A stretch of DNA of 64,000 nucleotides from contig NZ_JACJSD010000010.1 in the NCBI RefSeq assembly GCF_014697615.1, positions 1-64,000 of the forward strand, given 5' to 3'. Of the stretch, positions 4,288 through 22,920 are shown piece after piece (within the stretch, counting starts at the first letter, position 1; every line of letters begins with the position of its first letter). The position numbers and the translations under genes were made by a program. Source of the DNA: Nostoc sp. FACHB-280 (GTDB lineage: Bacteria; Cyanobacteriota; Cyanobacteriia; Cyanobacteriales; Nostocaceae). The notes beneath the pieces are model-generated. The model saw nothing but the letters and a program-made list of their open reading frames with translations. It was not told where the DNA came from and ran no database searches.

Positions 4288-4299
4288 AAGATTATGTAT

Positions 4300-4446
4300 T
4301 GGAAAGTATGAAGTATGAAGTATGAAATTTGATAGCGATAACATCAACAGATAATAAAACTCAGACACCGAAAGGCTTTTAAACCTGTCACCTGTCACTT
4401 GTCACCTGCCACCTGCTATCCACTTCAGACTTCATACTTCATCCCG
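4300..4446. repeat. Short tandem repeats between chlG and the Get3d gene
   Basis: Two kinds of short repeat are visible: GAAGTATGAAGTATGAA units near 4308-4326 and CACCTGTCACTTGTCACCTG units near 4387-4420, with TTCATACTTCATCC at the edge. They resemble the short tandemly repeated sequences spread through Nostocales intergenic DNA and recur elsewhere in this window. No gene is present. Confidence 0.6.
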
Positions 4447-4448
4447 GT

Positions 4449-5549
4449 TTAAAAAGAAATAATCAAATAATTATTTTGGAATTTTGCTCCAGTTACAGGT
4501 CTACCAGTCAAGGCTGGTGGTAAGAAGATGTTCCGCCGTTGGTCGCCGGCTTCTACTGTGACTTCTGGCCCTACCTGGGTAAGTTTTACCTGTTTTTTAT
4601 CAAATCCAGGCAAAAATAAGCGTACTTGACGGTTATGGACATCGATTTCGATGGGTTTGGGTACTTTGCTGGTTTGTTCTGCAAAGTTGGGTAAACCATC
4701 TATTAGGGGTTGCCAGTTACCTTGGGTCACATCCGGCACAACATTTACAGATAGCGGTGCAAAATCCGCCGTTAAATCTGCTGTTGTCTGGTCAGCAATT
4801 TGGATAACTCCACCTACCGTCAGACCAACTTGTTGTGCGCTTCCCCACAAATAACGAGCAACTGCCACTTCTATGGGGTCATTGGTTGTTACCAAAAAGG
4901 CTGCAACTCTTTTGGGGTCAGCCAAAGCCGCTTTACCCTTGTCTAAGAAATCGTTGACTTGGTTGGTGGGTTGAGCAAAGTTATCTGCTGTCCAATTGAC
5001 GTTGAAAAAACTGGTAATCAGTGGTTGTATTAATGGCGATTCAGAAATTGTCTTGCCTAAATCGGAGTTGACAAACAACTGTCGAAATCGCCGCACATAC
5101 CAACTGAGAGATTCTGGCAAACCCAACAGCCGCAAAGTAAAAGAATCACCCGTGCCATCGTAAATAATTGCATCATATTTGCCACTGGCATCATATTCAC
5201 GGATAGCATTTAAGGCGAGGGCGCTGTCCATTCCTGGTAGTGCCACCAGTTCTTGACCGTAAACCTCTTTAAAAATGGGTGTACGGAGGTATTGTGCCTC
5301 TAGTTTTTTGGCTTCTTCCCAATTGCGTTCTAAAAGTACAGATGCAGACAACTGTACTACTTGCAAATTAGGAGCGATGTCTTGAGGGTCAGCTGAGAGT
5401 GTTGTTTCTAACAGGATAGGTAAAACTGGTTCTGCCAGTCCTGCTAAAAGTACACGCTTACCTTGACTTGCCAATAGTTTAGCTGCGGCGATCGCTACTT
5501 TGCTACGTGCGATGCCGCCTTTGCCCAAAAATGTCAATATTAGGGACAT
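4449..5549 (-). CDS. Get3d-type ATPase with C-terminal alpha-crystallin-like domain
   Basis: A 366-residue ArsA/Get3-like P-loop ATPase. The N terminus MSLILTFLGKGGIARSK carries the signature-lysine GKGG, but the usual second P-loop lysine position reads Ala-Arg rather than Gly-Lys. The last 70 residues (starting PKPIEIDVHNRQVRLFLPGF) form a small beta-rich domain of the Hsp20/alpha-crystallin kind. This combination matches the Get3d subgroup of phototrophs, whose client and partners are unsettled. It is not the tail-anchored insertion factor of eukaryotes by simple transfer of name. The ATG at 5549 was preferred over 5603 because families start at the P-loop strand. PetP is 87 bases upstream. 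Confidence 0.85.
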   Translation of the reverse strand: MSLILTFLGKGGIARSKVAIAAAKLLASQGKRVLLAGLAEPVLPILLETTLSADPQDIAPNLQVVQLSASVLLERNWEEAKKLEAQYLRTPIFKEVYGQELVALPGMDSALALNAIREYDASGKYDAIIYDGTGDSFTLRLLGLPESLSWYVRRFRQLFVNSDLGKTISESPLIQPLITSFFNVNWTADNFAQPTNQVNDFLDKGKAALADPKRVAAFLVTTNDPIEVAVARYLWGSAQQVGLTVGGVIQIADQTTADLTADFAPLSVNVVPDVTQGNWQPLIDGLPNFAEQTSKVPKPIEIDVHNRQVRLFLPGFDKKQVKLTQVGPEVTVEAGDQRRNIFLPPALTGRPVTGAKFQNNYLIISF

Positions 5550-5636
5550 TTCGTGATTTCCAATTACCGCCTGTTGTTTCCACTCCAACTTAGCATTAGG
5601 CAAATACTCTTAGCTTCCGCCTTGAGTTTGTCCTAG

Positions 5637-5828
5637 CTACACAGGTTTAATTTCGTCTTCAAAAAACCAAGTGGCGCTATTATCTTCAAACTTCACTACT
5701 ATGCCAACGCCGCTACCATCAGTCATTTTGTAGCCTTCGATAACGCCGACTTTACCAAGTTTTTGAGCAACTGAGTTGGGTACGCGATCGCGTAGACGAT
5801 ACACCTTAACCTTTTGTCCGATTTCCAT
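5637..5828 (-). CDS. petP: Cytochrome b6f complex subunit PetP
   Basis: A 63-residue protein starting MEIGQKVKVYRLRDRVP and ending in the WFFEDEIKPV pattern, which is an SH3-like small beta barrel (DUF2862). PetP is a peripheral cytoplasmic-side subunit of the cyanobacterial cytochrome b6f complex that affects linear electron transport. Length and sequence fit the family closely. It lies upstream of the Get3d gene on the same strand and could be the first gene of that transcript; the 5' flank up to the divergent Uma2 gene (116 bases) would hold both promoters. Confidence 0.9.
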   Translation of the reverse strand: MEIGQKVKVYRLRDRVPNSVAQKLGKVGVIEGYKMTDGSGVGIVVKFEDNSATWFFEDEIKPV

Positions 5829-5944
5829 GCTGCCTGATTACAATGCAATAAACCAAGTCTCAGTTTAGCGGAATCTGGGACTTATCTGTAACTTCGTTCC
5901 ACTCCAAATTAAAATTAAATCAACACGCAATCAGGTATCAAACC

Positions 5945-6736
5945 ATGTTTGTCACAGCACAACAGCTAGAACAACAAATGCCCGATGCAACTCGGTTGTT
6001 AAGTGATGAGCCGGAAATGGAAACTTCGTTGCATTATGCACAGCTATTACTGTTAGTTACTTGTTTAGAATGGATGTGGCGTGACCAAAATGACTATTTT
6101 ATTGGTGCAAACCTGACAATATACTTTAGTCGTCAGCAATTACGAAATCGAGATTTTCGTGGCCCAGACTTTTTTTTAGTGAAGGATACGGAAAAGCGCC
6201 CCCGCAATTCTTGGGTAGTTTGGGAAGAAGATGGTCGTTATCCTGATTTGATTATTGAATTACTCTCGGAAAGCACAGCTAACATTGATCGGAATTTAAA
6301 GAAAAGTCTCTATGAAAACCGATTTCACACACCTGAGTATTTTTGGTTTTCACCCGAAAGTTTAGAATTTGCTGGTTTTGAGTTGATTGGCAATAAATAT
6401 CAACAAATCGAGCCTGATGGGCGTGGTTGGTGTTGGAGTGAGGTACTTGGCCTGTATTTAGGTGTAGAAAATGCTAAACTTCGTTACTTTACTCCTGAAG
6501 GGGACTTAGTGCCAACACCAGAAGAGGCGGCGCTAAATCTTCAACAGCAAGCAATTGCAGCATATCAACAGGCAATTGAGGCACAGCAACAAGCATCTGA
6601 GGCACAGCAACAAGCATCTGAGGTACAGCAACAGTTATCTGATACTGAATTAAGATTGCAACAAGAACAGGAGCGATCGCAACGCTTGGCACAATATTTG
6701 CGTTCTCTGGGTGTTGACCCAGACACTATGCCTTGA
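5945..6736 (+). CDS. Uma2-family protein with coiled-coil tail
   Basis: A 263-residue protein of the Uma2 (DUF820) restriction-endonuclease-like fold, a family greatly expanded in cyanobacteria and often called putative endonuclease without a known role. RGPDFFLVKD and DLIIELLSES supply the core acidic strand residues, and a lysine lies further on in NLKKSLYEN. The last third is a glutamine/alanine-rich coiled coil built on a repeated AQQQASE unit, encoded by a 21-base DNA repeat near 6578-6625. The end LRSLGVDPDTMP is the standard family tail. The next Uma2 gene follows after 10 bases. Confidence 0.85.
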   Translation: MFVTAQQLEQQMPDATRLLSDEPEMETSLHYAQLLLLVTCLEWMWRDQNDYFIGANLTIYFSRQQLRNRDFRGPDFFLVKDTEKRPRNSWVVWEEDGRYPDLIIELLSESTANIDRNLKKSLYENRFHTPEYFWFSPESLEFAGFELIGNKYQQIEPDGRGWCWSEVLGLYLGVENAKLRYFTPEGDLVPTPEEAALNLQQQAIAAYQQAIEAQQQASEAQQQASEVQQQLSDTELRLQQEQERSQRLAQYLRSLGVDPDTMP

Positions 6737-6746
6737 GGTACCAGCA

Positions 6747-7406
6747 ATGTATCAAACTGACCCGCCCCATCCGCCACAAGAAACCATGCCTACAATGTAT
6801 GATTTACCCAGTGAATTAATCGGGGAATCAGGGTTGCCAGACGAATTTCATTGTATGCAAGCAGATTTATTAACTGAGACTTGTCAATCTGCTAACTATT
6901 CATCAGCAGAAATTTTACTGGCAAGTGACTTAAACCTTTACTATGACCCCCGCCATCCATTGTGGTACAAACGTCCTGATTGGTACATGGTTGTAGGAGT
7001 ACCGACAGCAGAACAACAGCAAGAATTACGTTTAAGCTACGTCATTTGGCAAGAGGGTGTTGCACCATATTTAGTAGTTGAATTACTTTCCCCAGGTACA
7101 GAACAAGAAGATTTAGGACAAACACTGCGAGAAGCCAACAAACCCCCGACTAAATGGGAAGTGTATGAGCGAATTTTGCGGGTTCCCTATTATGTCGTCT
7201 ATGACCGCTACGAAAACAATTTGCGGGTTTTTCAGCTTAATGGTGCTGGTTATGAAGCTATATCTTTGCAAGAGCCAAAATTTTGGTTGAAAGAGTTAGG
7301 CTTAGGCTTAGGTCTTTGGCAAGGTACTTATCAACAGACAACGAGTTTATGGTTACGCTGGTATAACACCGTAGGTTGGATACCAACGCTGAAAGAACAA
7401 GCCTAA
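6747..7406 (+). CDS. Uma2-family protein, truncated by an in-frame stop
   Basis: A 219-residue Uma2 (DUF820) protein starting MYQTDPPHPPQETMPTMYDL. The core strand VVELLSPGTEQED and the preceding SYVIWQEG match its neighbour. The ATG at 6747 starts 10 bases after the upstream Uma2 gene, so the two are probably co-transcribed. The frame ends at TAA 7404-7406 just where these proteins usually enter a coiled-coil tail, and the tail is still encoded in frame after the stop. The fold domain itself looks complete, so the short form could still be functional. Confidence 0.8.
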   Translation: MYQTDPPHPPQETMPTMYDLPSELIGESGLPDEFHCMQADLLTETCQSANYSSAEILLASDLNLYYDPRHPLWYKRPDWYMVVGVPTAEQQQELRLSYVIWQEGVAPYLVVELLSPGTEQEDLGQTLREANKPPTKWEVYERILRVPYYVVYDRYENNLRVFQLNGAGYEAISLQEPKFWLKELGLGLGLWQGTYQQTTSLWLRWYNTVGWIPTLKEQA

Positions 7407-7481
7407 CAAGAACGTCAACGGGCTGATAAACTGGCAGAGTATTTAAGATCCCAAGGAATTGACCCAGATAGTATTACTTAA
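7407..7481 (+). pseudogene. Orphaned tail of the preceding Uma2 gene
   Basis: Directly after the TAA, the same frame continues QERQRADKLAEYLRSQGIDP and then DSIT before a second TAA at 7479-7481. This is the usual coiled-coil and LRSxGIDPD ending of Uma2 proteins and parallels the LRSLGVDPD end of the upstream gene. A single base change (for example CAA or GAA to TAA) explains the break. A sequencing error at 7404 would give the same picture. Confidence 0.75.
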
Positions 7482-7758
7482 AGCCTCATCCGCTTTAAAA
7501 TCTAAATTTTAGAATTACATTAAGATAGGTATATTTTTGTAAGCTAAATATAGTGCCTGATTCATTGTATGAATAAATTCCCCTACCAATACTTAATCAT
7601 CTGTTAGAAATTTAACTTAATAAATTCTTTAATTGGATGATTTGTCTGTAGTTATCCAAATTCAAATATTATCAAAGACTATACATTAGGGGAACTTTCA
7701 TCTAAAGTTAGGTTCATGGAAGCCAATTAAGTCTGGGTAGTGAGTGAGGTAGCAGAAA

Positions 7759-8619
7759 TTGGTGCAGATCATCCGCAAAAGTCTACGCAAAGCAGGAAAA
7801 CTGAGGCGTATACTACCTATATCTGAACAATCTTGGGCAAAGTTTGATTTACTGAGAACTTTAGTCAGACGAGATTTAGAAGCGAAGTATAAAGGTTCGG
7901 TCTTAGGAAATTTGTGGCCTTTGGTAAATCAGCTATCACAGCTATTAATTTATACTTATGTATTTTCAATTGTATTAAAGGTCAAGCTGCATACTTTAAA
8001 AGGCTTACCAGACAATAATTTTACCTTTGGGTTATGGCTATTTGCGGGTTTATTGCCTTGGATAGCTTTTACAGGTGGACTGACGCAGTCTGCTAGTTCT
8101 GTAATATCACAGCCAAATTTAGTGAAGAAGGTGGTGTTTCCTTTAGCTTTATTGCCTTTAGTACCAATTTTATCAACGTTTATTGAAAGCTCCCTTGGCG
8201 TGATGGCCTTGATTTTTTTTGTGACTTTGACTTCTGGGACTTTACATCCTACGTTGGCACTGTTACCCTTGGTCTGGCTAACACAGTTGATGCTAACAGC
8301 AGGCTTGGGTTACTTGAGTGCGGGATTAACAGTTTTTTTGCGCGATATTCCTCAAACATTAGGGGTAATTTTAAATCTTTGGTTGTATGCGACACCAATT
8401 GTTTATCCAGCAACCTCTATTCCTGAACAATGGCGGGGTTGGGTGTTTTGGCTAAATCCCATAGCGGCGATCGCAGAAGTCTATCGTGATTTAATTTTAG
8501 TTGGGGAGGTGCGACATGGGGCAGAATGGTTTGTATCAAGTGCGATCGCATCTGTGATATTGTGTTGTAGCTTTTTATTTTATAAGCGATTGCGCCCAGC
8601 TTTTGCTGATGTACTATAG
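7759..8619 (+). CDS. Polysaccharide ABC exporter, permease subunit (Wzm type)
   Basis: A 286-residue ABC-2-type membrane protein. The cytoplasmic N terminus contains RDLEAKYKGSVLGNLWPLVN, the family's amphipathic signature ahead of the first helix. Six hydrophobic helices follow, with the conserved YATPIVYP segment and LNPIAAIAEVYRDLIL near the C terminus. Such permeases export O-antigen-like or capsular glycans pre-assembled on a lipid carrier. The start is TTG at 7759 or GTG at 7762; neither has a clear ribosome-binding site. The ATPase gene follows after about 90 bases. Confidence 0.9.
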   Translation: MVQIIRKSLRKAGKLRRILPISEQSWAKFDLLRTLVRRDLEAKYKGSVLGNLWPLVNQLSQLLIYTYVFSIVLKVKLHTLKGLPDNNFTFGLWLFAGLLPWIAFTGGLTQSASSVISQPNLVKKVVFPLALLPLVPILSTFIESSLGVMALIFFVTLTSGTLHPTLALLPLVWLTQLMLTAGLGYLSAGLTVFLRDIPQTLGVILNLWLYATPIVYPATSIPEQWRGWVFWLNPIAAIAEVYRDLILVGEVRHGAEWFVSSAIASVILCCSFLFYKRLRPAFADVL

Positions 8620-8707
8620 CACGTTTTCACGTCTAAACATTTAATAGCTGGTATTCACGTAAAATCTACCTTTAATTAGGATGTGCTATTCGTAAGTGTG
8701 CAGTGAT

Positions 8708-9979
8708 ATGGGTGAAGAAATAGCAATTTCACTAAAGAATATATCGAAATGCTATAAACGGTATGCTCGTCCGGTAGATCGACTCAAGGAAATTTTGCTA
8801 CCTAGCAAAAGCTATGCTCAAGAGTTTTGGGCATTACAGGACATTAATATAGAAGTTCCTAAAGGTGAAACTTTGGGAATTATTGGTCAAAATGGCTCTG
8901 GGAAAAGTACATTACTACAAATTATTGCTGGGACATTAACACCCACAACAGGAGAAGTATTTGTAAATGGAAGAATTTCAGCTTTACTTGAACTTGGTAG
9001 TGGTTTTAATCCAGAGTTTACTGGAAGACAAAATGTCTTCTTTAATGGCCAAATTTTAGGTTTAAATAAAGAGCAAATAGAAGCTAAATTTGACGATATT
9101 GCTGCTTTTGCAGATATAGGAGATTTTATCGATCAGCCTGTTAAAACTTACTCAAGTGGGATGTTTGTCAGGTTAGCATTTGCTGTTGCAGTTAATGTAG
9201 AGCCAGATATTTTAATTGTTGATGAGGCTTTAGCTGTTGGAGATATTAAGTTTCAATTTAACTGCTTTCTTAAGTTCAAAGAATTTCAAGAAAAAGGTAT
9301 AACAATTTTATTTGTTTCTCATGATAGTAACTCTATTAAAAGATATTGTAACTATGCGTTTATTATGAATAATGGGCGCATTATTTATCAAAATAACCCA
9401 AACGATGTCGTTAATTACTATACAAACTTTTTGTTTGCTAGTGAAACAGTAAAAGCTAATGAAGAGTTCACAACAAAGGAAGAGTCAAATCTAAATCATC
9501 AAACCTCATTTATGGTTGGTGGTAATTTAGAATATCGCTACGGAGATGGTCGTGGTGAAATAAGTAAATTGTCGATTGAGAATAGTGAAGGAGTTTGTAC
9601 ACAAACTTTTATAACTTGTGAAAAAATCAAAGTGCAACTAGAAATTATTACAAAAGAATTCATAGAATTTCCAGTATTTGCTATGACATTAAAAGATAGT
9701 AGAGGTGAAGATATATACGTAACTAATACATATACCCAGAATTTAAATGTGCCAAATCTACCAGCTAACAGTCTAGTTAAAGTGAGTTTTGAACAGTCTA
9801 TTAATGTTTGTCCAGGTGATTACTTCATATCATTGGGTTTTGTATCTCTAGCGCAAGGGAATATTACTCCCATCGACCGTCGGTATGATGCTGTCCAAAT
9901 TAAAGTTTTATCATTGAATAATGACCATAGCAGTGGCATAGTTAATTTACAAAGTAAAATTGATTTTAAAATTCAATAA
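8708..9979 (+). CDS. Polysaccharide ABC exporter, ATPase with carbohydrate-binding tail (Wzt type)
   Basis: A 423-residue ATPase from the ATG at 8708. The nucleotide-binding domain has Walker A GQNGSGKST, the degenerate signature YSSGM usual in this subfamily, Walker B ILIVDEALAVGD and a switch histidine in FVSHDS. From about residue 255 there is a separate beta-sandwich of about 165 residues ending DRRYDAVQIKVL, which matches the Wzt C-terminal carbohydrate-binding domain. In the E. coli O8/O9a systems that domain recognises the modified end of the finished chain before export. Its presence implies export of a chain with a defined terminus, not merely any lipid-linked glycan. Confidence 0.9.
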   Translation: MGEEIAISLKNISKCYKRYARPVDRLKEILLPSKSYAQEFWALQDINIEVPKGETLGIIGQNGSGKSTLLQIIAGTLTPTTGEVFVNGRISALLELGSGFNPEFTGRQNVFFNGQILGLNKEQIEAKFDDIAAFADIGDFIDQPVKTYSSGMFVRLAFAVAVNVEPDILIVDEALAVGDIKFQFNCFLKFKEFQEKGITILFVSHDSNSIKRYCNYAFIMNNGRIIYQNNPNDVVNYYTNFLFASETVKANEEFTTKEESNLNHQTSFMVGGNLEYRYGDGRGEISKLSIENSEGVCTQTFITCEKIKVQLEIITKEFIEFPVFAMTLKDSRGEDIYVTNTYTQNLNVPNLPANSLVKVSFEQSINVCPGDYFISLGFVSLAQGNITPIDRRYDAVQIKVLSLNNDHSSGIVNLQSKIDFKIQ

Positions 9980-10060
9980 TCGAGTTACTTAACTAAATAT
10001 TTAAGTGAGACTTTTAGAAAAAAGTACAATATAATTTTTATTTGAAAATTTATTATTTTT

Positions 10061-13000
10061 ATGAAGTATCCACAAGATTTTGAGTTGATTGAACAATTTA
10101 ATGTATGGTTGCCCAAAGCAAGTAATACAAATTTTAACTACTCAGATGGTTCAAATGAAGAAAAATATATAGAGGATTGCATAACTAAAGCCTCGGATCT
10201 TAGCTCTCATTCTGCGGAATTAACCAGAGCTATGTGTAATTGGTCTTCTGAGTACCATTTCAGCCCAAAACGTAGCAATTTATTGCGTCCTCTTAAGTTG
10301 AATAAATCTAGTGCTGTACTAGAACTAGGATCTGGTTGTGGAGCAATAACTCGTTATTTAGCAGAAAATGTTGGGCGGGTAGTTGCCGTAGAAGGCAGTA
10401 TGACAAGAGCTAAAATTACATCTTCCCGTTGTAGAGACTTAGGGAATGTTGAAACTATATGTAGTGAATTTCATAAGATAGAATTTGACAAAAAGTTCGA
10501 TATAGTAACACTAATTGGTGTTTTAGAGTATAGTGGAGTATACATTAAGCATAGTCATCCTTATCAATATGCCTTAGAAATAGCCAAGCAATTTCTCAAA
10601 GAAGATGGGGTACTAATTGTAGCCATAGAAAACAAACTTGGTCTTAAATATTTTGCAGGATGCTCAGAAGATCATACAAGTGTGCCATTTGATGGAATAG
10701 AAGGTTACAGCAGTGGTAGTATGCTGAAAACCTTTGGCAAGCTAGAGTTGCAATCTTTGTTAAACACATCTGGTTTTGCCTATACTGAGTTTTTCTATCC
10801 ATTTCCTGATTACAAATTACCTGATGTAATAATGAGAATTGACAATAAAGATACTAATTCTTTATTGCTGAAAAAGCCTTTCTTATATAATTGGTTAAAT
10901 TATAATAATAACCGAGATTACAATAATAATAAAATAGAATTATTTAATGAATTTTTAGTTGCTAAACAGTTAGAAATTAATGGGTTACTATCACAAATGA
11001 GTAACTCATTTCTCATATTAGCAAGTAATCACGAAAAAAATCTAAATCAACACTTTGACGCAGAAAAAATTACGTGGAAATATAATGTTCTAAGACGTAA
11101 AGAGTTCATGACTGAAGTAAATCTAGTCAAGGACATAAAAAATAACTCTCTGTTATTACAGCGTCAACCCATATATCCTGAGTTATCAGAAAGCTCCCAA
11201 CATATCTATACAAATATCAAGCATACTGCTCAAGAAGTTTCTAGCTTTATAGATGGCGAAACTTTGATCGAGAAAATTATATTAGCTATCCGCTATAGCT
11301 CCACCAATAATTCAAATGCTTTCACCACTGCTATTCAAATATGGTATAAATTTTTAGTTAAAGAAGCATTGAGCCTATTAGGTAGCGAAGATGAAATACC
11401 TGGAAGTTATGTAGATTGTACACCTTGGAATCTGATTATTACTGTTGATGGAGATATACACTATATAGACAGAGAATGGAATTTCTTAGAAAAACTTCCC
11501 CTTAAATATATATTATTTAGAGGTACTCTCTACACTTATCATAACCTTTATAAATGGTTAGAAAGTAGCTTAGATAGCACAAATAAATGTGATAGTTTTG
11601 AAAAATTTTTAAGGTACTGTTTAGGATTAATTCAAGTAAATCTAACTCATGAAGAAATTACTTACTTTTGGCAATTAGAGTATGAACTAACTCAGAAAGT
11701 AAACCTAAATTCTGATATGAGTTTTGATAAGTTCTTTACTACCTTTAATTTAATTAATAGTTCTGAGCTTATAACTACGAAGATTAACCGTTTAGAAGCT
11801 CAATTACAGCAAACTCAAGTAGAATTAGAGCGATCGCAGTCTCAATTGCAACATACAAAGTCTCAACTGCAAGATAAACAGTATGAATTAGAGCGATCGC
11901 AAATCATGATTGCAGCAATGGAAAGTAGTACATTTTGGCGAATACGAACAGTATGGTTTAATTTTAGACGTGCTATTGGTTTCGTCAATCCCAATGTTTC
12001 TTTCCGCCAAAGCTTATTATCAAGAGCAAAATATCTGTTGGCTATTTTTCGAGCTAAGGGATTCAGCTACGTATTTTATAAAATACTCAAAAAAATATTC
12101 TTAAAGTTTAATTATGCACTAAACTCTGTTTTAGCGTTACCAGGTGTTCCTCATGCTAACGACAGTGATTATCAGAGGTGGTTGAACATAAACTACCCCA
12201 CTCAAGATGCTTTAAAAAAGATATCTGCACAGGTAGATTTATTAGCTTACAAGCCTGTCATTAGTATTGTAATGCCTGTTTTTAATACGCCTGCAAAGTT
12301 TTTGCGGGAAGCTATTGATTCAGTTTTAAATCAGGCTTATCCATATTGGGAGTTATGTATTGCTGATGATGCTTCCACAGATAATCAAATCAGACAAATG
12401 CTTGAAGATTACTCATCAAAAGACTCTCGGATAAAAGTTGTCTTTAGAAATGAAAACGGTCATATTTCGCGTTGTTCTAACTCAGCGTTAGAGCTTGCTA
12501 CTGGTGAATTCATCAGTTTGCTTGATCATGATGATATTCTAACTCCTGATGCCCTATATGAAGTTGCTCTGTTGCTCAATCAGCATCCAGATGCAGATAT
12601 GATTTATTCTGATGAAGATAAAATGGCTGAAAATGGGAAACTTCAAGATCCATTTTTTAAACCAGATTGGTGTCCTGACTCATTTTTATCTCGAATGTAT
12701 ACCTGTCATCTAGCCACTTATAGACGGGAATTAGTAGAAAAAATTGGTGGTTTTAGAATAGGTTATGAAGGCAGCCAAGATTATGATTTGGTTTTGAGGT
12801 TAACAGAAAAAACAACGCGAATCTTTCACATACCCAAAATCCTATACCACTGGAGAATTCATCCTCAATCTGCTGCAAGCAAAGCTGATCAAAAGCCTTA
12901 CGCTGTGATAGCAGCAGAAAAAGCATTAGCAGATGCACTTGTTAGACGAGGTGAAGATGGGAGAGTTACAGAAGCTAAAAGCCTTGCAGGACATCACATA

Positions 13001-13852
13001 ATCCGATACACAATTAAAGACTATAAACTTGTCAGTATTATTATCCCCACAAGAGATTTGGGTAATACTTTAGACAAGTGTCTAACATCTATTTTTGAAA
13101 AAACAACTTACCCAAATTACGAAATTATTCTTATAGACAATGGTAGCCAGGAAGAAAATACGTTTAGGATTTTTTCTAAATGGCAACAAAAAGAACCCAA
13201 CAGATTCCAATGCCATCGTCTAGATATCCCTTTTAACTACTCCAGGATTAATAATTATGCTGTAAATCAAGCCAAGGGAGATTACTTACTGTTTTTGAAC
13301 AATGACATCGAAGTAATTACACCTGACTGGATAGATGCAATGGTTGAACAAGCTCAAAGACCATCTATAGGAGCTGTTGGAGCCTTACTTTTATATCCTG
13401 ATAATACCATTCAACATGCTGGCGTAGTTATGGGTATTGGTGGAGTGGCTGGCCATAGTCATAAAAATTATTTAAGTGATTCACCCGGCTATTTTGATCA
13501 AATCGCAACTGTAAATAACTATTCAGCTGTGACAGCAGCTTGTTTAATGTGCAGACGAGAAGTTTTTGAAGCAGTAGAAGGTTTTGAAGAAAAACTTGCA
13601 GTTGCTTTTAATGATGTTGACCTATGTTTAAAAATTGTTGAAAAAGGTTACAGAAACATCTATTTGCCACACGTTATGCTATATCACTATGAATCTAAAA
13701 GCCGAGGTTACGAAGATACACCCGAAAAGCAAGCAAGGTTTCTCAAAGAAACAGAGTATATGCAAAATAAGTGGAAAAAGTTTATTGACTACGATCCCTG
13801 TTATAGTATTAACTTGACATCTAACAACGAAGATTACAGCATAAATATTTGA
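10061..13852 (+). CDS. Methyltransferase / kinase-like / coiled-coil / double GT2 fusion protein
   Basis: A 1263-residue multidomain protein. Residues 83-200 hold a class I SAM methyltransferase (VLELGSGCGAITRYL; IVTLIGVLEYSG). Residues about 340-500 look like an aminoglycoside-phosphotransferase-type kinase fold: DCTPWNLIIT (452-461) and YIDREW (468-473) match the catalytic Asp-x4-Asn and metal-binding Asp motifs. Residues 575-615 are a glutamine-rich coiled coil. A first GT2 domain spans about 732-935 (VISIVMPVFNTP, DHDD at 822) and a second about 988-1235 (VSIIIPTRDLG, LNNDIEV at 1079). The first half resembles WbdD, which caps and measures O9a polymannose. The kinase call is by motif only. 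Confidence 0.75.
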   Translation: MKYPQDFELIEQFNVWLPKASNTNFNYSDGSNEEKYIEDCITKASDLSSHSAELTRAMCNWSSEYHFSPKRSNLLRPLKLNKSSAVLELGSGCGAITRYLAENVGRVVAVEGSMTRAKITSSRCRDLGNVETICSEFHKIEFDKKFDIVTLIGVLEYSGVYIKHSHPYQYALEIAKQFLKEDGVLIVAIENKLGLKYFAGCSEDHTSVPFDGIEGYSSGSMLKTFGKLELQSLLNTSGFAYTEFFYPFPDYKLPDVIMRIDNKDTNSLLLKKPFLYNWLNYNNNRDYNNNKIELFNEFLVAKQLEINGLLSQMSNSFLILASNHEKNLNQHFDAEKITWKYNVLRRKEFMTEVNLVKDIKNNSLLLQRQPIYPELSESSQHIYTNIKHTAQEVSSFIDGETLIEKIILAIRYSSTNNSNAFTTAIQIWYKFLVKEALSLLGSEDEIPGSYVDCTPWNLIITVDGDIHYIDREWNFLEKLPLKYILFRGTLYTYHNLYKWLESSLDSTNKCDSFEKFLRYCLGLIQVNLTHEEITYFWQLEYELTQKVNLNSDMSFDKFFTTFNLINSSELITTKINRLEAQLQQTQVELERSQSQLQHTKSQLQDKQYELERSQIMIAAMESSTFWRIRTVWFNFRRAIGFVNPNVSFRQSLLSRAKYLLAIFRAKGFSYVFYKILKKIFLKFNYALNSVLALPGVPHANDSDYQRWLNINYPTQDALKKISAQVDLLAYKPVISIVMPVFNTPAKFLREAIDSVLNQAYPYWELCIADDASTDNQIRQMLEDYSSKDSRIKVVFRNENGHISRCSNSALELATGEFISLLDHDDILTPDALYEVALLLNQHPDADMIYSDEDKMAENGKLQDPFFKPDWCPDSFLSRMYTCHLATYRRELVEKIGGFRIGYEGSQDYDLVLRLTEKTTRIFHIPKILYHWRIHPQSAASKADQKPYAVIAAEKALADALVRRGEDGRVTEAKSLAGHHIIRYTIKDYKLVSIIIPTRDLGNTLDKCLTSIFEKTTYPNYEIILIDNGSQEENTFRIFSKWQQKEPNRFQCHRLDIPFNYSRINNYAVNQAKGDYLLFLNNDIEVITPDWIDAMVEQAQRPSIGAVGALLLYPDNTIQHAGVVMGIGGVAGHSHKNYLSDSPGYFDQIATVNNYSAVTAACLMCRREVFEAVEGFEEKLAVAFNDVDLCLKIVEKGYRNIYLPHVMLYHYESKSRGYEDTPEKQARFLKETEYMQNKWKKFIDYDPCYSINLTSNNEDYSINI

Positions 13853-13928: not shown

Positions 13929-15596
13929 ATGAAATTTTTGAAATCTATTTGGACTCTATGTTTAATATTAGCCTTATTTAAGTTATGGCTGACCAGCCAT
14001 CTGCCTATTATAGCTTCCTATGGGGGGCATGATAACTTGAGATATATACAGCAGGCTTGGGAGATATTTAATTTCAAGCCTCCTTTTCATTACGATCAAT
14101 ACGTTCTCATGAGGCAGCCAGGATATCCATTCTTGATTCGCTTAAGCCATATATTAGGCTTTTCATTAAGATTTTCCCAAGAATTGTTGTATATATCATC
14201 TGGGTTTTTCTTGGCTTGGTCTTTTTATCGTTACTATAAAAATAAGTTAATTGTATTTATTTTTCTCACATTACACATTTTACTTCCAGCATCATTTTTT
14301 TTGAATAGAGAAACTCTACAAGAATCATTATATTTACCTCTGACAATCTTTATTATATCTTGTCTTATTCACTTACTAAATCAGCCATTTACATCTAAAA
14401 ATTTTATATTCTGGTCTGGTTGTTTAGGGTTAGGTCTCGCTTGGTTTTATAATACAAGACCTGAAGGTATATTAATAATTCCAAGTGTTGGTGTCATGTG
14501 TATCCCTTTATTCATTAAGGCACTGCGCTTTGAATTTAATAAGCGAAATGTTTTTAGGTATTTACAAATTTCCCTATTATCTATTTGTCTTCCAGTTATT
14601 TTTATCACTTCATCTATTTGTTTAACTAATTATTTTAAATTTGGACTATTTGCTGTTGATGACTTGACATCACCAGGTATCAAAGCTGCTTATGCTCAAC
14701 TTACTAGCGTTAAGCATGAAAAGTGGAGACGTTTCGTACCTGTGCCAGAAGAAACTAGACTTAAAATTTATGATGCGAGTCCAAGTTTCAAAAAGCTATC
14801 GGTGTATTTAGAGCAACAAGGAAAGGTATGGATGGTACCGGGTTGTAGAACATTAAACATCTGTGATGATTACCCTGGAGGATGGTTCTTGTGGGCATTT
14901 CGTGACGCTGTTGCTTATGCTGGTCAATATAAATCTGCTCCGGAAACTGAGCTTTTTTATAAGCAAATGGCATTTGAAATTAAGTCTGCTTGTTTGTCAG
15001 AAAAACTTTCATGTAGCAATAATTATTTAGCATTACCAACTCTTAGCATAGAAGGACGTGATGAATATATCAAACCTTTTTTAAAAAGTTTTAGCAAAAT
15101 AACTCAAAAATTAGTCAATGAAATTTTAATACTGAATCTAACAAATGGAGAAGAAAATTTAGCTCATAGGAAAAAGTTTTATGAAAAAGTCACTAGGGAA
15201 CCATTTGATTTTATAAAATATCGTAACACTGCATTTAATCAGTTAAAAGATAAATTTATTTACTGGATAGCTGAAGTATATAAGTTTTGTTTTCCTGTAA
15301 TATTAGTAACATCACTAATTAGTTTATTATTAGCTCACACTAATGGTATAACTTCTAAAAAAGTGTCCTTGAGAATTCCATTAATTATAGTTATAACTAT
15401 GCTACTAACTATGATAATGCGAATAACACTTATTGCTTATATTGACACAACAAGTTTCCCAGGAGGTTTCCGATATGTTTGGAATATTGTTCCTTTACTA
15501 TTGATGAATATAGCTATTGGTATGTCGTATTTTTATGAAATATTTTCTATCAAAAAAATATTAATAAAGTTCAATCAAATTAGATTTTTATTCTGA
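13929..15596 (+). CDS. Polytopic membrane protein, possible GT-C-type glycosyltransferase
   Basis: A 555-residue membrane protein with about ten hydrophobic helices and a large central extracytoplasmic region with six or more cysteines (including GCRTLNICDD and ACLSEKLSC). After the first helix the loop reads SYGGHDNLRYIQQAW; an Asp in this position is typical of GT-C enzymes, which use polyprenyl-phosphate sugars. That would suit a polysaccharide locus, and a polyprenyl-phosphate-sugar-synthase-like gene lies two genes downstream. I do not recognise the family by sequence, so the function is inferred from topology and neighbours. The gene is strongly AT-rich. Confidence 0.55.
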   Translation: MKFLKSIWTLCLILALFKLWLTSHLPIIASYGGHDNLRYIQQAWEIFNFKPPFHYDQYVLMRQPGYPFLIRLSHILGFSLRFSQELLYISSGFFLAWSFYRYYKNKLIVFIFLTLHILLPASFFLNRETLQESLYLPLTIFIISCLIHLLNQPFTSKNFIFWSGCLGLGLAWFYNTRPEGILIIPSVGVMCIPLFIKALRFEFNKRNVFRYLQISLLSICLPVIFITSSICLTNYFKFGLFAVDDLTSPGIKAAYAQLTSVKHEKWRRFVPVPEETRLKIYDASPSFKKLSVYLEQQGKVWMVPGCRTLNICDDYPGGWFLWAFRDAVAYAGQYKSAPETELFYKQMAFEIKSACLSEKLSCSNNYLALPTLSIEGRDEYIKPFLKSFSKITQKLVNEILILNLTNGEENLAHRKKFYEKVTREPFDFIKYRNTAFNQLKDKFIYWIAEVYKFCFPVILVTSLISLLLAHTNGITSKKVSLRIPLIIVITMLLTMIMRITLIAYIDTTSFPGGFRYVWNIVPLLLMNIAIGMSYFYEIFSIKKILIKFNQIRFLF

Positions 15597-16476: not shown

Positions 16477-17655
16477 ATGGAAACAATTACTATAATTGAA
16501 TCTGCCGATGCCGATATACCTTCTCTTGAGCTTTCCATTGTTATGCCTTGTTTAAATGAAGCAGAAACACTGGAAATTTGTATCAAAAAGGCGCAGTGGT
16601 ACTTAACCCAACACAAAATTTCAGGTGAAATTATTGTTGCTGATAATGGTAGTACAGATGGGTCTCAAGAAATTGCTACTCAAATGGGAGTTCGCCTTGT
16701 TTCTGTTAAAGAGAAAGGCTACGGTAGTGCTATTCGAGGCGGTATTGCTGCGGCCAGGGGGTTGTACATAATTATGGGCGATGCTGATGATAGTTACGAT
16801 TTTAGTAAGCTCACTCCATTTATCGAAAAGCTTCGAGTTGGCTATGACCTAGTGATGGGAAATCGCTTTAAAGGTGGTATAAAGCCAGGTGCAATGCCAT
16901 TTTTACACAAATATTTGGGAAATCCTGTCCTAACATGGATAGGAAAAATATTTTTCCACAGCCCTTGTAGTGATTTTCATTGCGGGCTTCGAGGTTTTAG
17001 GAAAGCTGCAATTGAAAAACTCAATTTAAGGACAACAGGAATGGAATTTGCTAGTGAAATGGTTGTTAAAGCCAGCCTTCACAAAATGCGAATTGCTGAA
17101 GTCCCAACAACTTTATCCCCTGATGGTCGTTCCCGTCCTCCTCATTTACGAACTTGGCAAGATGGTTGGCGGCATCTAAGATTTTTGTTGCTGTATAGTC
17201 CACGTTGGCTTTTTCTGTATCCTGGTTTAGTATTGATGCTTTTGGGTTTGATGTTCGGACTGTGGCTTTTACCGGGAACAAAAGGAATTTTTGATATACA
17301 TTCCCTACTATTTGCGGCGATCGCGATTCTTGTTGGCTTTCAGGCTTTTACCTTCGCTATATTTACCAAAGTCTTCGCTATTAGCGAGGGGCTACTTCCT
17401 GAAGACTCACGATTTAATAAAGTATTTCGCTATATCAACTTAGAGTTAGGATTGTTAATTGGTATCATACTCTTTTTGATAGGAATAGGTGGCTCTATCT
17501 ATGCCTTTAGTATCTGGAAAGCAAATTTCTTTGGGCCGCTAAAACCATCTGAAACGATGCGAATAGTCATTCCATCAGTTACTTCTATCGCTCTTGGTGT
17601 CCAAATAATTTTTTCGAGCTTCTTTTTGAGCGTATTAGGTTTAAAACGAGGATGA
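16477..17655 (+). CDS. GT2 glycosyltransferase, polyprenyl-phosphate sugar synthase type
   Basis: A 392-residue protein with a cytosolic DPM1/GtrB-like GT2 domain: LSIVMPCLNEAETLE near residue 20, ADNGSTDGS near 57 and the catalytic-site MGDADDSYDF near 105. About four hydrophobic helices follow from residue 240 (FLYPGLVLMLLGLMFGLWLL onward). This layout fits enzymes that load glucose or mannose onto polyprenyl phosphate and may flip it or hold it at the membrane. It would provide a donor for the GT-C-like protein encoded upstream. It is 134 bases before rfbC. Confidence 0.85.
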   Translation: METITIIESADADIPSLELSIVMPCLNEAETLEICIKKAQWYLTQHKISGEIIVADNGSTDGSQEIATQMGVRLVSVKEKGYGSAIRGGIAAARGLYIIMGDADDSYDFSKLTPFIEKLRVGYDLVMGNRFKGGIKPGAMPFLHKYLGNPVLTWIGKIFFHSPCSDFHCGLRGFRKAAIEKLNLRTTGMEFASEMVVKASLHKMRIAEVPTTLSPDGRSRPPHLRTWQDGWRHLRFLLLYSPRWLFLYPGLVLMLLGLMFGLWLLPGTKGIFDIHSLLFAAIAILVGFQAFTFAIFTKVFAISEGLLPEDSRFNKVFRYINLELGLLIGIILFLIGIGGSIYAFSIWKANFFGPLKPSETMRIVIPSVTSIALGVQIIFSSFFLSVLGLKRG

Positions 17656-17789: not shown

Positions 17790-18344
17790 TTGATAGAATT
17801 AGCCTGCTTACCCACAAATATCCCTGATGTTTTACTTATCGAACCGCAAGTATTTGCTGACGCACGCGGCTTTTTTTTGGAATCGTATAACCAACAAAAA
17901 TTTACTGATAAACTTGGTCATCCTGTTAACTTTGTGCAGGATAACCATTCTTTTTCTAAAAAAAATGTTTTACGCGGTCTGCATTATCAAATCATTCAAC
18001 CCCAAGGTAAATTAGTGCGGGCTGTGGTTGGTAGTATTTTTGATGTAGCTGTAGATGTTCGCAAAAGTTCACCTACTTTCGGACAATGGGTAGGTTATGA
18101 ACTCAGCGCCGAGAATAAACGCCAATTGTGGATACCACCAGGCTTTGCTCATGGTTTTTTGGTACTTTCGGAAGTGGCGGAGGTGCTTTACAAAACTACA
18201 GATTACTATGCACCCCAAGGCGATCGCACTATCCTATGGAATGATCCAGATTTAGCTATAGATTGGCCTATCCAAGAACCACCAATATTATCAGCTAAAG
18301 ATAGCAACGGTCTGGCATTTAAAAATGCAGAAGTCTATGAATGA
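17790..18344 (+). CDS. rfbC: dTDP-4-dehydrorhamnose 3,5-epimerase
   Basis: A 184-residue RmlC-type cupin: DARGFFLESYNQQKF, VQDNHSFSKKNVLRGLHYQ with the catalytic histidine, DVAVDVRKSSPTFGQWVG, and the IPPGFAHGFLVLSE motif. It makes dTDP-4-keto-L-rhamnose in dTDP-L-rhamnose synthesis. The start is a TTG at 17790 with ATAAGG nine bases upstream. The 3' end overlaps rfbD, and rfbA follows, so the three are one transcript. The 4,6-dehydratase gene rfbB is not in the window and must be elsewhere. Confidence 0.95.
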   Translation: MIELACLPTNIPDVLLIEPQVFADARGFFLESYNQQKFTDKLGHPVNFVQDNHSFSKKNVLRGLHYQIIQPQGKLVRAVVGSIFDVAVDVRKSSPTFGQWVGYELSAENKRQLWIPPGFAHGFLVLSEVAEVLYKTTDYYAPQGDRTILWNDPDLAIDWPIQEPPILSAKDSNGLAFKNAEVYE

Positions 18345-19221
18345 TTCAATCTTATTGCTGGGTAGTAACGGTCAAGTCGGTCAAGAATTACAAAAAATCT
18401 TGACCCCGCAACATAAAATCATCGCCTATGCACGTCCTGAAATAGACCTGACTCAACCTGATAGTCTGCGCCAAATCATCAGAGATATCCAACCAAAAAT
18501 CATTATTAACGCTGCGGCTTACACTGCTGTAGATAAGGCCGAAGCTGAACCGGAACTAGCTACAGCAGTAAATGCAACCGCACCCGAAATTATCGCCCAA
18601 GAAAGTGAAAAACTTGGAGCGTTTTTAATTCATATTTCCACAGATTATGTGTTTGATGGTCAACAAAGTCAGCCATACAAAGAAACTGATGCAACTAACC
18701 CATTAAATACTTACGGGAAAACTAAACTTGCAGGAGAAATAGCTATTACCCAAACAACTCCCCATCACATTATTCTCCGCACAGCTTGGGTTTATGGCAG
18801 TTTTGGTAAAAGTAACTTTGTCAAAACAATGCTGCGGCTGGGTAAAGAACGACCAGAAATCAAGGTAGTCACAGACCAAATTGGTAGTCCTACCTGGGCG
18901 CGAGATATCGCTGAAGTCATCGCCCAAATTATCCCACAATTAACACCAGAAATTACCGGCACTTACCACTACACTAACAGTGGCGTAATTAGCTGGTACG
19001 ATTTTGCTGTGGCGATTTTAGAAGAAGCTCAACAATTAGGCCTTCCTCTCACAGTGCAGAATATTGTCCCCATTACCACCGCCGAATACCCCACATTAGC
19101 CCGTCGCCCTGCTTATGCTGTGCTGGCTTGTGGGAAAATATCACAAGTTTTAGGAACTCACCCAGCTTATTGGCGACACAGCCTGAGACTCATGCTCAAA
19201 GAATGGCTCTCTAAATCTTGA
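18337..19221 (+). CDS. rfbD: dTDP-4-dehydrorhamnose reductase
   Basis: An RmlD-type extended SDR of 294 residues from the ATG at 18337 (an in-frame ATG at 18325 is possible). LLLGSNGQVGQEL is the NADPH-binding motif, INAAAYTAVDKAE the substrate-proximal loop, STDYVFDG the catalytic serine/threonine strand and TYGKTKLAGE the Tyr-x3-Lys pair. It completes dTDP-L-rhamnose. The start lies inside the last codons of rfbC, indicating translational coupling. Confidence 0.95.
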   Translation: MNDSILLLGSNGQVGQELQKILTPQHKIIAYARPEIDLTQPDSLRQIIRDIQPKIIINAAAYTAVDKAEAEPELATAVNATAPEIIAQESEKLGAFLIHISTDYVFDGQQSQPYKETDATNPLNTYGKTKLAGEIAITQTTPHHIILRTAWVYGSFGKSNFVKTMLRLGKERPEIKVVTDQIGSPTWARDIAEVIAQIIPQLTPEITGTYHYTNSGVISWYDFAVAILEEAQQLGLPLTVQNIVPITTAEYPTLARRPAYAVLACGKISQVLGTHPAYWRHSLRLMLKEWLSKS

Positions 19222-19226
19222 TCATT

Positions 19227-20303
19227 ATGAAAGCACTAATTCTCTCTGGTGGTAAAGGCACACGTCTACGCCCACTCACTTATACAGGCGCAAAACAACT
19301 TGTTCCCGTTGCCAATAAACCAATTCTATGGTATGGAATTGAAGAAATGGTGGCGGCCGGGATTACAGATATTGGAATTATTATCAGCCCAGAAACGGGG
19401 AAAGAAGTACAAAGCAAAACCGGAGATGGCAAACTTTTTGGAGCGAAGATTACTTACATTTTACAAGACCAGCCAGCCGGGTTAGCTCATGCAGTGGCGA
19501 TCGCTCGTCCCTTTTTAGCAGATTCACCCTTTATTATGTATCTGGGTGATAACTTGATTCAGCAAGGTGATTTAAGTTATTTTCTGGAAAAATTTATTCA
19601 ACAACAACCGGATGCGTTAATTCTTTTACGTGAAGTTGTTAATCCTAGTGCTTTTGGTGTAGCTAAGGTTGATGATACAGGCAGAGTCTTAGAATTAATT
19701 GAAAAGCCGAAAATTCCCCCATCAAATCTAGCCCTAGTAGGCGTTTATTTCTTTTCTCCCATTATTCATCAGGCAATTTCTCTAATTCAGCCTTCCCAAC
19801 GAGGCGAGTTAGAAATTACTGATGCTATTCAATGTTTAATCAATCAGCAAAAACAAGTTTTAGCTTGTAATTTAGACGGCTGGTGGCTAGATACTGGGAA
19901 AAAAGATGATTTATTAGAAGCTAACCGTTTAATTCTAGATACTTATTTAACGACATCTAATCTAGGTGAAGTGGATGAGAAAAGCCAAATTATCGGGCGA
20001 ATCCAAATAGGTGCTAATTCTCGAATTATTAATTCTACAATTCGTGGGCCAGTGATTATTGGCAGTAATTGTTATTTAGAAAATTGCTTTATTGGCCCTT
20101 ATACTAGCATTGCTAATAACACCACCCTCATCGATACCGACTTAGAACATAGTGTAATTTTAGAAGGTGCTAAAATTGCTGGAATTGACCAGAGGATTAT
20201 TGATAGCGTTATTGGTCAACGAGCAGAATTAACAATTGCTCCTCGCCGTCCTAAAGCTTTGCGCTTTTTGATTGGTGATGATTGTCACATAGAACTGACA
20301 TGA
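19227..20303 (+). CDS. rfbA: Glucose-1-phosphate thymidylyltransferase, long form
   Basis: A 358-residue sugar nucleotidyltransferase starting MKALILSGGKGTRLRPLTYT, with KQLVPVANKPILWYGIE as the base- and phosphate-binding region. Unlike the 290-residue RmlA, it carries a C-terminal left-handed beta-helix (hexad repeats such as IQIGANSRIINSTI and PVIIGSNCYLENCF), as in the StrD/GraD-like long form of thymidylyltransferases. It produces dTDP-glucose, the first step to dTDP-rhamnose. The ATG at 19227 is preferred to a TTG at 19218. Its TGA overlaps the next ATG. Confidence 0.88.
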   Translation: MKALILSGGKGTRLRPLTYTGAKQLVPVANKPILWYGIEEMVAAGITDIGIIISPETGKEVQSKTGDGKLFGAKITYILQDQPAGLAHAVAIARPFLADSPFIMYLGDNLIQQGDLSYFLEKFIQQQPDALILLREVVNPSAFGVAKVDDTGRVLELIEKPKIPPSNLALVGVYFFSPIIHQAISLIQPSQRGELEITDAIQCLINQQKQVLACNLDGWWLDTGKKDDLLEANRLILDTYLTTSNLGEVDEKSQIIGRIQIGANSRIINSTIRGPVIIGSNCYLENCFIGPYTSIANNTTLIDTDLEHSVILEGAKIAGIDQRIIDSVIGQRAELTIAPRRPKALRFLIGDDCHIELT

Positions 20304-21151
20304 TTTACTTTTTAACAGTTAACTATTACTCGACTAATCTGTTAACTAAATTAATTAATTCGTTACCCTCCAGTAATCACAGTAATTATAAGCTCATTAT
20401 TGTCAATAATTCCCCTGATGATACTGAGATTAATAGTCTCAAAAATCAATGTGTGCAGATTATCCATGCTGAAACTAATATTGGTTTTGGTCAGGCTTGT
20501 AACTTGGGTATAAAATATATTTATCAAGAAAATAAGCAAGCAATTATTTGGATAATTAACCCTGATGCTTATTTAGCAGAAAATTCTTTAGCAACAGCCA
20601 AGATATTTTTTGATTCTCATTCTGAACTATCAATTATTGGTTCTATAATTTATACACCTACAGGTGAAGTCTGGTTTGGCGGTGGTAATTTTATTCCTGC
20701 TACTGGTGCTATTCTCAGCCAAGACCTGTTAACAAATACAGAGCAAGATTACATTACTTGTGATTGGGTTTCGGGCTGTAGTTTAATTATTAACTTAGGT
20801 AATTTCTCAGAAATACCTTTATTTGACCCAGCATACTTTCTTTATTATGAAGACTTTGATTTTTGTAGACGCTATGCCCAACAAGGTTATTTGGTAGCAG
20901 TCACAAAAAAAATTAGTGTAATTCATCAGCCTTCTTCTATTACTAATCGCAATATTTTCCTGAAAATTAAATACAGCACATACAGCTATTTATTAACATT
21001 AGAGAAATATACAAATAAAGCAGTACAAATCGTTAGATTAATTCGACTAATTTTGTATGCTTTACTCGTATTACCGATTAAACCACAAGTAGCACTAGGA
21101 AAAATCAATGGTGTGTTAATCTATGTGAGGCGATATCCGCATCAGAATTAG
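20300..21151 (+). CDS. GT2 glycosyltransferase, rhamnosyltransferase-like
   Basis: A 283-residue GT2 protein (MIYFLTVNYYSTNLLTKLIN; IVNNSPDD; NIGFGQACNLGIK; IWIINPDAYLAE; LYYEDFDFCRR). The NPDA donor-site motif and the EDFDFCRR acceptor/base motif are those of the WcaA/rhamnosyltransferase-like GT2 group. The start ATG forms an ATGA overlap with the rfbA stop, so it is tightly coupled to dTDP-rhamnose synthesis, which supports rhamnose as the donor. That specificity is inference from position. Confidence 0.85.
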   Translation: MIYFLTVNYYSTNLLTKLINSLPSSNHSNYKLIIVNNSPDDTEINSLKNQCVQIIHAETNIGFGQACNLGIKYIYQENKQAIIWIINPDAYLAENSLATAKIFFDSHSELSIIGSIIYTPTGEVWFGGGNFIPATGAILSQDLLTNTEQDYITCDWVSGCSLIINLGNFSEIPLFDPAYFLYYEDFDFCRRYAQQGYLVAVTKKISVIHQPSSITNRNIFLKIKYSTYSYLLTLEKYTNKAVQIVRLIRLILYALLVLPIKPQVALGKINGVLIYVRRYPHQN

Positions 21152-22856: not shown

Positions 22857-22920
22857 TATTATGCTTGAATAAAGATCCAAATTGCAGCAATTACTAAGGA
22901 AAAATCTGAAGTCGGAAATT

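Follow-up and report, generated by a model that had tools for sequence, protein, structure and literature searches.

A probable O7 ORF6-type chain-terminating polymerase in Nostoc and the co-variation of exporter tail and terminator class among its relatives

The locus and its orthologs

The window, by which we mean the whole stretch of 64,000 nucleotides from Nostoc sp. FACHB-280 analyzed here, holds three open and co-directional reading frames at 7759-13852; these and all further features described below lie on the + strand. The first, wzm (7759..8619), encodes the ABC-2 membrane subunit of a polysaccharide exporter with 286 amino acids (Pfam ABC2_membrane, E 3.3e-22). The second, wzt (8696..9979), encodes a 427-residue ATPase subunit (Pfam ABC_tran) with a C-terminal carbohydrate-binding tail. 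This tail, a proposed cap reader at residues 280-418 (9533..9949), matches Wzt_C (PF14524) with 93.4 bits against a cut-off of 30.4, confirming the tailed Wzt beside the fusion gene that a preliminary description of the DNA had reported. The best PDB match of the wzt product is 8dku (E 1.3e-79, residues 13-380), which we take to be the Wzt of Aquifex aeolicus.

The third gene (10061..13852) encodes a fusion protein of 1263 amino acids, which has full-length homologs of 1257 (L040) and 1241 residues (L043). Its chain begins with a SAM methyltransferase domain at about residues 27-250 (10139..10810; Pfam Methyltransf_11 at 87-187), followed by a putative APH-like kinase domain at about residues 308-505 (10982..11575) and a coiled coil of roughly 8 heptads at about residues 564-619 (11750..11917), the proposed ruler. 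Directly after the coil comes the motif MESS-x-FW-x-[ILM]-R...W (residues 620-645, 11918..11995), which is kept in relatives and may attach the protein to the membrane. Two GT2 domains complete the chain, the first at residues 735-896 (12263..12748) with DHDD at 822, the second at residues 990-1227 (13028..13741; about 990-1214 by Pfam) with NND at 1080. Coordinates and domain list agree with those of the preliminary description.

Further downstream lie rmlC, rmlD and rmlA (17790..20303), the genes for dTDP-L-rhamnose, which score above the cut-offs of the NCBIfam equivalogs TIGR01221, TIGR01214 and TIGR01208. A rhamnosyltransferase-like GT2 gene (20282..21151), a candidate for the adapter enzyme, matches TIGR01556 weakly, with 52 bits where the cut-off is 200. 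Since these genes follow the fusion gene, the exported glycan probably contains rhamnose. G+C content is 31-35% over 8-16 kb of the window and 42-44% over 1-6 kb. Low G+C is frequent in surface-glycan loci.

The order wzm-wzt-fusion recurs in two orthologous loci, L034 and L035, which excludes a chance arrangement. L034, from the same genus, shows 94% nucleotide identity across 6.5 kb; in the available part of this sister species other genes, and no rml genes, follow the fusion gene. The wzm ortholog of L035 is 76% identical, and the wzm copy of L034 is broken. Frame breaks in the L034 wzm and fusion genes are differences of one or two bases, and the five inspected all fall in or beside short single-base runs, so that read error is as likely as gene decay; the L034 assembly consists of one contig.

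The methyltransferase and kinase domains

The closest described protein is Klebsiella pneumoniae O7 ORF6, in which the same fusion has already been published and assayed by Kelly et al. (2024; PMC11231755). In the parts of that article drawn on here, ORF6 forms an ATP-dependent and SAM-dependent cap at O3 of the terminal rhamnose, the exchange D441A abolishes kinase activity, and two GT2 modules add three rhamnoses. The likeness extends over the whole chain, in which a methyltransferase, an unannotated kinase segment (APH/AmiN-like in O7, putatively so here), a coil and two GT2 domains with DXDD and NXD motifs follow one another, and over the gene cluster with its wzm, wzt and rml genes. The window protein is a further example of this layout; the fusion design is not new.

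At the residue level, the published SAM-site positions of O7 ORF6 (Y28, Y66, G91, G93, E112 and Y158; PMC11231755) correspond, by their numbers, to Y27, Y65, G90, G92, E111 and Y157 in the window protein, the offset being -1 throughout. Five of these six are invariant in an alignment of 70 proteins and E111 is kept in at least 90%. From DHDD to NND the window protein counts 258 residues, compared with 255 published for the DXDD-NXD spacing of ORF6.

The kinase had been called in the preliminary description from the motifs DCTPWN and YIDREW. Both are nearly invariant in the 70 aligned proteins: D452, N457 and D470, the presumed catalytic residues, are each kept in 69 of 70 and E472 in all 70, and a V-x-K/R pattern at residues 366-368 has K or R in 61 of the 70 rows. 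APH kinases show the same motif spacing, D-x4-N-x12-D. No Pfam family covers residues 330-510, either in the window protein or in the 70 proteins of the alignment, and neither sequence nor profile searches returned a kinase among the Pfam matches or the listed PDB matches of this segment. Compared with a profile of 25 cyanobacterial APH proteins, taken from the genome of the window and its relatives, the segment scored 23.9 (P 0.0055) with an HHalign probability of just 6.6%, while five controls scored 11.3-13.3. In this weak match D452, N457 and D470 stand in register with the HGD-x4-N...D motif of APH. The result lends weak support to an APH-like kinase and does not contradict the preliminary description.

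The AlphaFold model of residues 1-560 built from the 70-row alignment is confident (pLDDT 93.2, pTM 0.93) and supersedes one from a 4-row alignment (pLDDT 53). When this region was submitted to Foldseek, nearly all of the best 50 of 1904 matches were methyltransferases, and in the profile search of the PDB (best 60 of 177 matches) the top-scoring stretches likewise fall in the methyltransferase.

An alternative reading would be a kinase segment that is dead or structural beside a methyltransferase that forms a plain methyl cap. It would account for the weak profile match to known kinases and the missing Pfam kinase in 70 of 70 proteins, and methylated sugars do serve as caps in A. aeolicus (PMC9445017, in the part used here). 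The near-complete retention of the D/N/D triad and E472, and the loss of kinase activity in D441A of O7 ORF6 (PMC11231755), speak against it, and we regard it as very improbable.

The preliminary description had taken WbdD of Escherichia coli O9a as the model. A WbdD ortholog, with methyltransferase and eukaryotic-type kinase as in O9a and a polymerase fused on, would share the order of methyltransferase, kinase and coil, and WbdD (4azt) does appear at rank 44 among the 50 Foldseek matches listed. The superposition is poor, however (TM 0.28/0.35, rmsd 18.2). No WbdD chain occurs among the 35 phmmer matches of the full protein, and WbdD is likewise missing from the 60 of 177 profile matches listed. 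The motif spacing is APH-like, the O7 kinase is described as unlike that of WbdD in sequence and structure (PMC11231755, as far as drawn on here), and the polymerase of the window is not on a separate protein. We consider a WbdD ortholog very improbable; the kinase looks like the O7 ORF6 type, which replaces WbdD as the closest model.

The coiled coil and its length

The coil comprises about 56 residues (564-619), somewhat more than the 40 or so that the preliminary description had assigned to it, and ends just before the conserved MESS-x-FW motif at 620; a low-confidence model (pLDDT 53) places a helix at 567-619. Of 84 relatives, 21 show a loose version of the post-coil motif, although two or more of these matches look like chance.

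Comparison of coil lengths suggests that the ruler changes by whole heptads among relatives. Between the fusion gene and its L034 ortholog, the single gap of a length that is a multiple of three is 21 bp, exactly one heptad, and lies in the coil (11838..11858, present here and missing from L034); the remaining five gaps are of one or two bases each. Measured from a conserved FD landmark immediately ahead of the coil, the anchor motif lies 65 (window), 58, 114, 100, 93, 72, 124 and 58 residues away in eight cyanobacterial proteins, and the distance leaves remainder 2 modulo 7 in seven of them; L043, which has the anchor motif and lacks the FD landmark, was excluded. This agreement gives no clean probability, because the landmark was picked after viewing the sequences and the eight proteins are related. 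The coils of relatives differ from that of the window by one, four, five and seven heptads.

The DNA of some relatives retains what may be traces of such changes. Tandem Repeats Finder at score 50 was applied to 73 of the 84 proteins, the 11 without kinase coverage being dropped (one of them, L117, also has a 21-bp array). Arrays with periods of 21n bp are present in the coil region of 20 of the 73 proteins (15,088 residues), as in L035 with 6.1 copies of 42 bp at 99%. In the catalytic part (36,489 residues) there are no tandem arrays, and beyond the coil region (19,032 residues) a single 21n-bp array was found. At score 40 the catalytic part yields a few short arrays as well, but their periods are not multiples of 21 bp. 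L054 and L055 appear to be the same gene from two assemblies, and the coil of the window itself contains no 21n-bp array.

Heptad-patterned protein sequence can by itself produce such periods. In 50 synonymous-codon shuffles a mean of 9.8 proteins, and at most 13, had 21n arrays compared with the observed 20, so about half of the array proteins are expected from the heptad pattern alone. The summed array score, by contrast, reached 2999, and no shuffle exceeded 1663; in 12 of the 20 proteins the observed score lay beyond every shuffle, which favours DNA duplications in these 12. No match was obtained when E. coli genomes were searched with the L098 gene to study coil length within a species. 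In the open-licence literature we found no report of chain terminators changing length in heptad steps. Together, the relatives amount to a naturally occurring series of different lengths of the proposed ruler.

Distribution and exporter genes

A clear ortholog (E <=1e-100) occurs in two of 99 other genomes and in one of 10 others of the genus; at E 1e-20 it is matched in seven of 387 further genomes sampled from the order, and at E 1e-10 in two of 385 others of a phylum sample. Searching plasmids with the window protein returned two distant matches. A scan of genome contigs with this single protein found no relative, whereas the alignment-based scan gave 166 in many phyla, and the best 80 of these were carried forward (L113 and L037 among the loci are one and the same contig).

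In 35 of these 80 loci a Wzt-like gene on the same strand precedes the relative's gene by no more than 2 kb; in 34 of them it is tailed, L076 being the exception; anywhere in the available locus DNA, there is one in 41 loci, tailed in 37. As several contigs stop near the gene, these counts are lower bounds. The available DNA of the other 39 loci, some with long flanks, contains no Wzt-like gene. Among 62 relatives with a complete reading frame and kinase coverage, GT2 domains in the same chain number none in 40, one in six, two in 15 and three in one. Of the O7 ORF6 orthologs, some have C-terminal GT modules and others stop after the coil (PMC11231755, which in the part considered here also mentions cyanobacterial orthologs). 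In L162 the catalytic part is joined to glycosyltransferases, no coil is seen, and 19 kb of DNA contain no Wzt match. Such loci indicate that the methyltransferase-kinase pair is not always tied to this exporter.

Wzt tails and terminator classes

The presence of a tail was considered as proof of a capping system and dropped, long Wzts being common: among 110 Wzt-like matches in 41 genomes, 91, counted by eye, have reading frames of more than 400 residues, long enough for a tail. For this reason tails were compared at matched NBD identity. Six loci with the same terminator are 75-97% identical to the window in the NBD and 51-93% in the tail, and a seventh, truncated one (L042) 72% and 52%. Where other genes lie downstream, in nineteen loci, NBD identity is 62-78% and tail identity 19-30%. 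The second Wzt of the genome itself (L184), 49% identical in the NBD and 18% in the tail, is not counted in these ranges.

All pairs of 40 Wzts, seven of the O7 type, 23 with a sulfotransferase and 10 others, were then evaluated at NBD identities of 66-80%. Tails are 48-61% identical in pairs within the O7 type (n=10) and 37-63% within the sulfotransferase type (n=228). Between classes, identity is 15-31% for O7-sulfotransferase (n=108), 17-30% for O7-other (n=65) and 18-32% for sulfotransferase-other pairs (n=118), and within the others, a mixed class, it is 19-31% (n=33). In the tail tree a starred branch (99) separates each of the O7 and sulfotransferase types from the rest, and some of the other rows carry long-branch warnings. 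The sulfotransferase type is also found on one side of a branch (98) in the NBD tree, where the O7 type takes two changes and the others three, the starred branches forcing just one each. Wzt tail and terminator class go together, and it is the kind of tail, rather than its presence, that matters. Tails may have been exchanged by recombination, an idea to which the trees lend partial support.

Across related genomes tail and fusion co-occur, as the preliminary description requires. Among 100 genomes, including that of the window, an orthologous fusion is found in just two others, G006 and G097, and the same two alone match the tail strongly (E 1e-97 and 4e-66; next best 3e-14). The relatives as a whole provide a natural experiment on whether a Wzt tail reads a cap, in which NBD and polymerase remain alike and tail and cap enzyme vary in concert.

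These observations bear on whether the chain is terminated at all. The methyltransferase and kinase could decorate internal sugars or a precursor without ending the chain, with the coil as a mere scaffold, as might be supposed from the 39 of 80 loci lacking a Wzt in the available DNA and from the apparently coil-less L162. Here, however, a tailed Wzt adjoins the gene, tails co-vary with the terminator at matched NBD identity, coils change in whole heptads, and terminator activity was assayed for O7 ORF6 (PMC11231755); internal decoration is unlikely.

Proposed mechanism and known systems

We assign a probability of roughly 0.8 to the reading that the 1263-residue protein is a chain-terminating polymerase of the O7 ORF6 type, which ends an ABC-exported glycan with a methyl-phosphate cap. 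Its two C-terminal GT2 domains would extend a lipid-linked, probably rhamnose-containing glycan at the membrane. The coil would rise from the membrane-anchor motif and set kinase and methyltransferase at a fixed distance; a chain end reaching these N-terminal domains would be phosphorylated and the phosphate then methylated, whereupon growth would stop. The Wzt tail would recognize the cap, and Wzm-Wzt would export the chain. The protein suggests that a cyanobacterium makes a capped glycan of controlled length. The fusion of capping, ruler and polymerizing parts beside a tailed Wzt, as first proposed for this DNA, was right in substance, although WbdD was the wrong model and the fusion had been published for O7.

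Several features set the window apart from O7. Its protein has 1263 residues, while the O7 construct is numbered up to 1414, and the carbohydrate-binding module of ORF6 seems absent, because the model has helices alone between kinase and coil (481-560); the need for this module is called unclear in the part of the O7 article considered (PMC11231755). No ribofuranosyltransferase family matches among the scanned neighbour genes, and the host is a cyanobacterium.

Other systems share single elements of the design. E. coli O9a has a tailed Wzt, and the cap added by WbbB of K. pneumoniae O12 is Kdo. WbdD of O9a likewise carries methyltransferase and kinase on a coil and forms a methyl phosphate cap, but its kinase is of the eukaryotic type and its polymerase WbdA is separate, unlike the GT2 pair in the window chain (PMC3482155). 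WbdD reaches about 20 nm from the polymerase (PMC5082667), compared with an estimated 8 nm or so for the coil of about 56 residues here. O12 WbbB combines terminator, coil and polymerase in a single polypeptide, with GT99, GT102 and GT103 as its families (PMC11231755). In the Wzm-Wzt of A. aeolicus the carbohydrate-binding domain of Wzt reads the glycan cap, which is a methylated sugar and not methyl phosphate (PMC9445017). Finally, heptad number varies by isolate in Helicobacter pylori FutA/FutB and acts there as a ruler for O-antigen glycosylation, a precedent for rulers of this kind, but these fucosyltransferases decorate the chain and are not terminators (PMC2583950). All of these papers are cited for the portions used here.

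Sulfotransferase relatives

In relatives, the gene after wzt often encodes a Sulfotransfer_3 protein (PF13469; L172, L173, L181, L182) or a methyltransferase, the latter with coil-like matches in L165, L171 and L180. The L172 protein combines a sulfotransferase with a heptad coil (4.5 copies of 84 bp) and the anchor motif of the window protein. L228 goes further, with sulfotransferase, coil (9.5 copies of 42 bp, 98%), anchor and two GT2 domains in the order of the window protein; its GT2 pair is 73% identical to that of the window, compared with 69% for the O7-type L040.

Sulfotransferases like that of L172 occur in 122 of the 291 genomes sampled from the order and were not found in the genome of the window (both at E 1e-25). 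A Wzt is present in 15 of 20 loci picked from these matches, tailed in 14 of them, and in 10 of the 20 the sulfotransferase chain itself includes the GT2 pair. Among 29 sulfotransferase proteins, 13 show the strict anchor pattern and 12 the GT2 pair. Eight have both, and in these eight relatives, judged by sequence, a sulfotransferase takes the place of methyltransferase and kinase on a similar coil, anchor and GT2 pair. Arrays with 21n-bp periods occur in 16 of the 29, partly outside the coil, as raw counts without shuffle control.

From these relatives one may tentatively picture modular terminators, in which one chassis of heptad coil, MESSKFWKLR-type anchor and GT2-GT2 would carry interchangeable cap enzymes, the Wzt tail would follow the cap enzyme, sulfate would be a new terminal cap, and chain length would be fixed in heptad steps as 21n-bp repeats are gained and lost. 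We rate this whole picture at somewhat below even odds. It is weakened by the wbsalmo cluster of Aeromonas salmonicida, where a sulfotransferase gene beside wzt is on record and, in the part of the report considered here, no sulfate was found in the glycan (PMC4483657). That cluster encodes a 438-residue Wzt, a protein of 216 residues with a sulfotransferase domain, and a large multi-domain WbbB; its sulfotransferase is small and separate, unlike the fused ones in our relatives (PMC4483657). We found no description of sulfotransferases as chain terminators in the open-licence PMC literature. The relatives point to such a role, with sulfate as the predicted cap, and their differing cap enzymes, matching tails and heptad-step rulers are the part worth experiments.

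The architecture varies further within this group. An extra GT2 domain lies between sulfotransferase and coil in L183 and others, and in L178 and L183 a separate methyltransferase gene is found between wzt and the sulfotransferase gene, so that the cap in these two loci could exceed sulfate.

Sulfotransferases in or near the terminator position

Apart from fusions with a methyltransferase and kinase, sulfotransferase proteins are found in or near the position of the terminator, the protein proposed to cap the glycan end. Six relatives carry such a protein beside a tailed Wzt (L172:6134-7522, L173:6247-7665, L181:6110-7207, L182:6087-7076, L183:2307-6302 and L228:5025-8339). Those of L172, L183 and L228 possess the coiled coil and anchor motif of the window type, and the GT2 pair is 65% (L183) and 73% (L228) identical to that of the window protein. 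All six are predicted to be sulfate-capping terminators.

Other domain arrangements

Matches confined to the methyltransferase part occur in short proteins of 301 and 313 residues encoded immediately after a tailed Wzt (L112:8956-9861 and L116:8959-9900) in the Gram-positive genera Paenibacillus and Blautia. L162 encodes a protein some 2226 residues long (4301-10981) that has the methyltransferase-kinase pair fused straight onto GT2 and GT4-like domains; inspection by eye revealed no coil, and 19 kb of this locus gave no Wzt match.

The full-length relative from another family, L035, contains a tandem repeat (9074-9329; 6.1 copies of a 42-bp unit, 99% identity) encoding a 14-residue coil repeat. 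In its protein (7349-11236) the second GT2 is not matched by the GT2 profile and, judged by eye, is devoid of the NND motif; this domain looks replaced or decayed. In the same-genus relative L034 (5874-11957), the fusion gene and wzm are split into several frames through differences of one or two bases; those inspected lie inside or next to short single-base runs. These breaks may reflect gene decay or read error.

Genomic surroundings

UbiA-family (chlorophyll-synthase-like) and ArsA-like genes (3238-5603) lie left of the glycan locus in the window. L034 and L035 have these genes beside the locus as well, and therefore the locus looks like the occupant of a fixed site. Further along the window, a protein hydrophobic by eye (13929-15596) has no match in Pfam or NCBIfam, and a GT2 (16477-17655) resembles polyprenyl-phosphate-sugar synthases. 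Both could possibly belong to a system that puts side-chain sugars on outside the membrane, of the kind described in PMC11127046.

The window ORF at 22305-22952, near the glycan locus, is by its motif a candidate adenylylsulfate kinase. An APS kinase gene also follows wzt in a further relative, L176.
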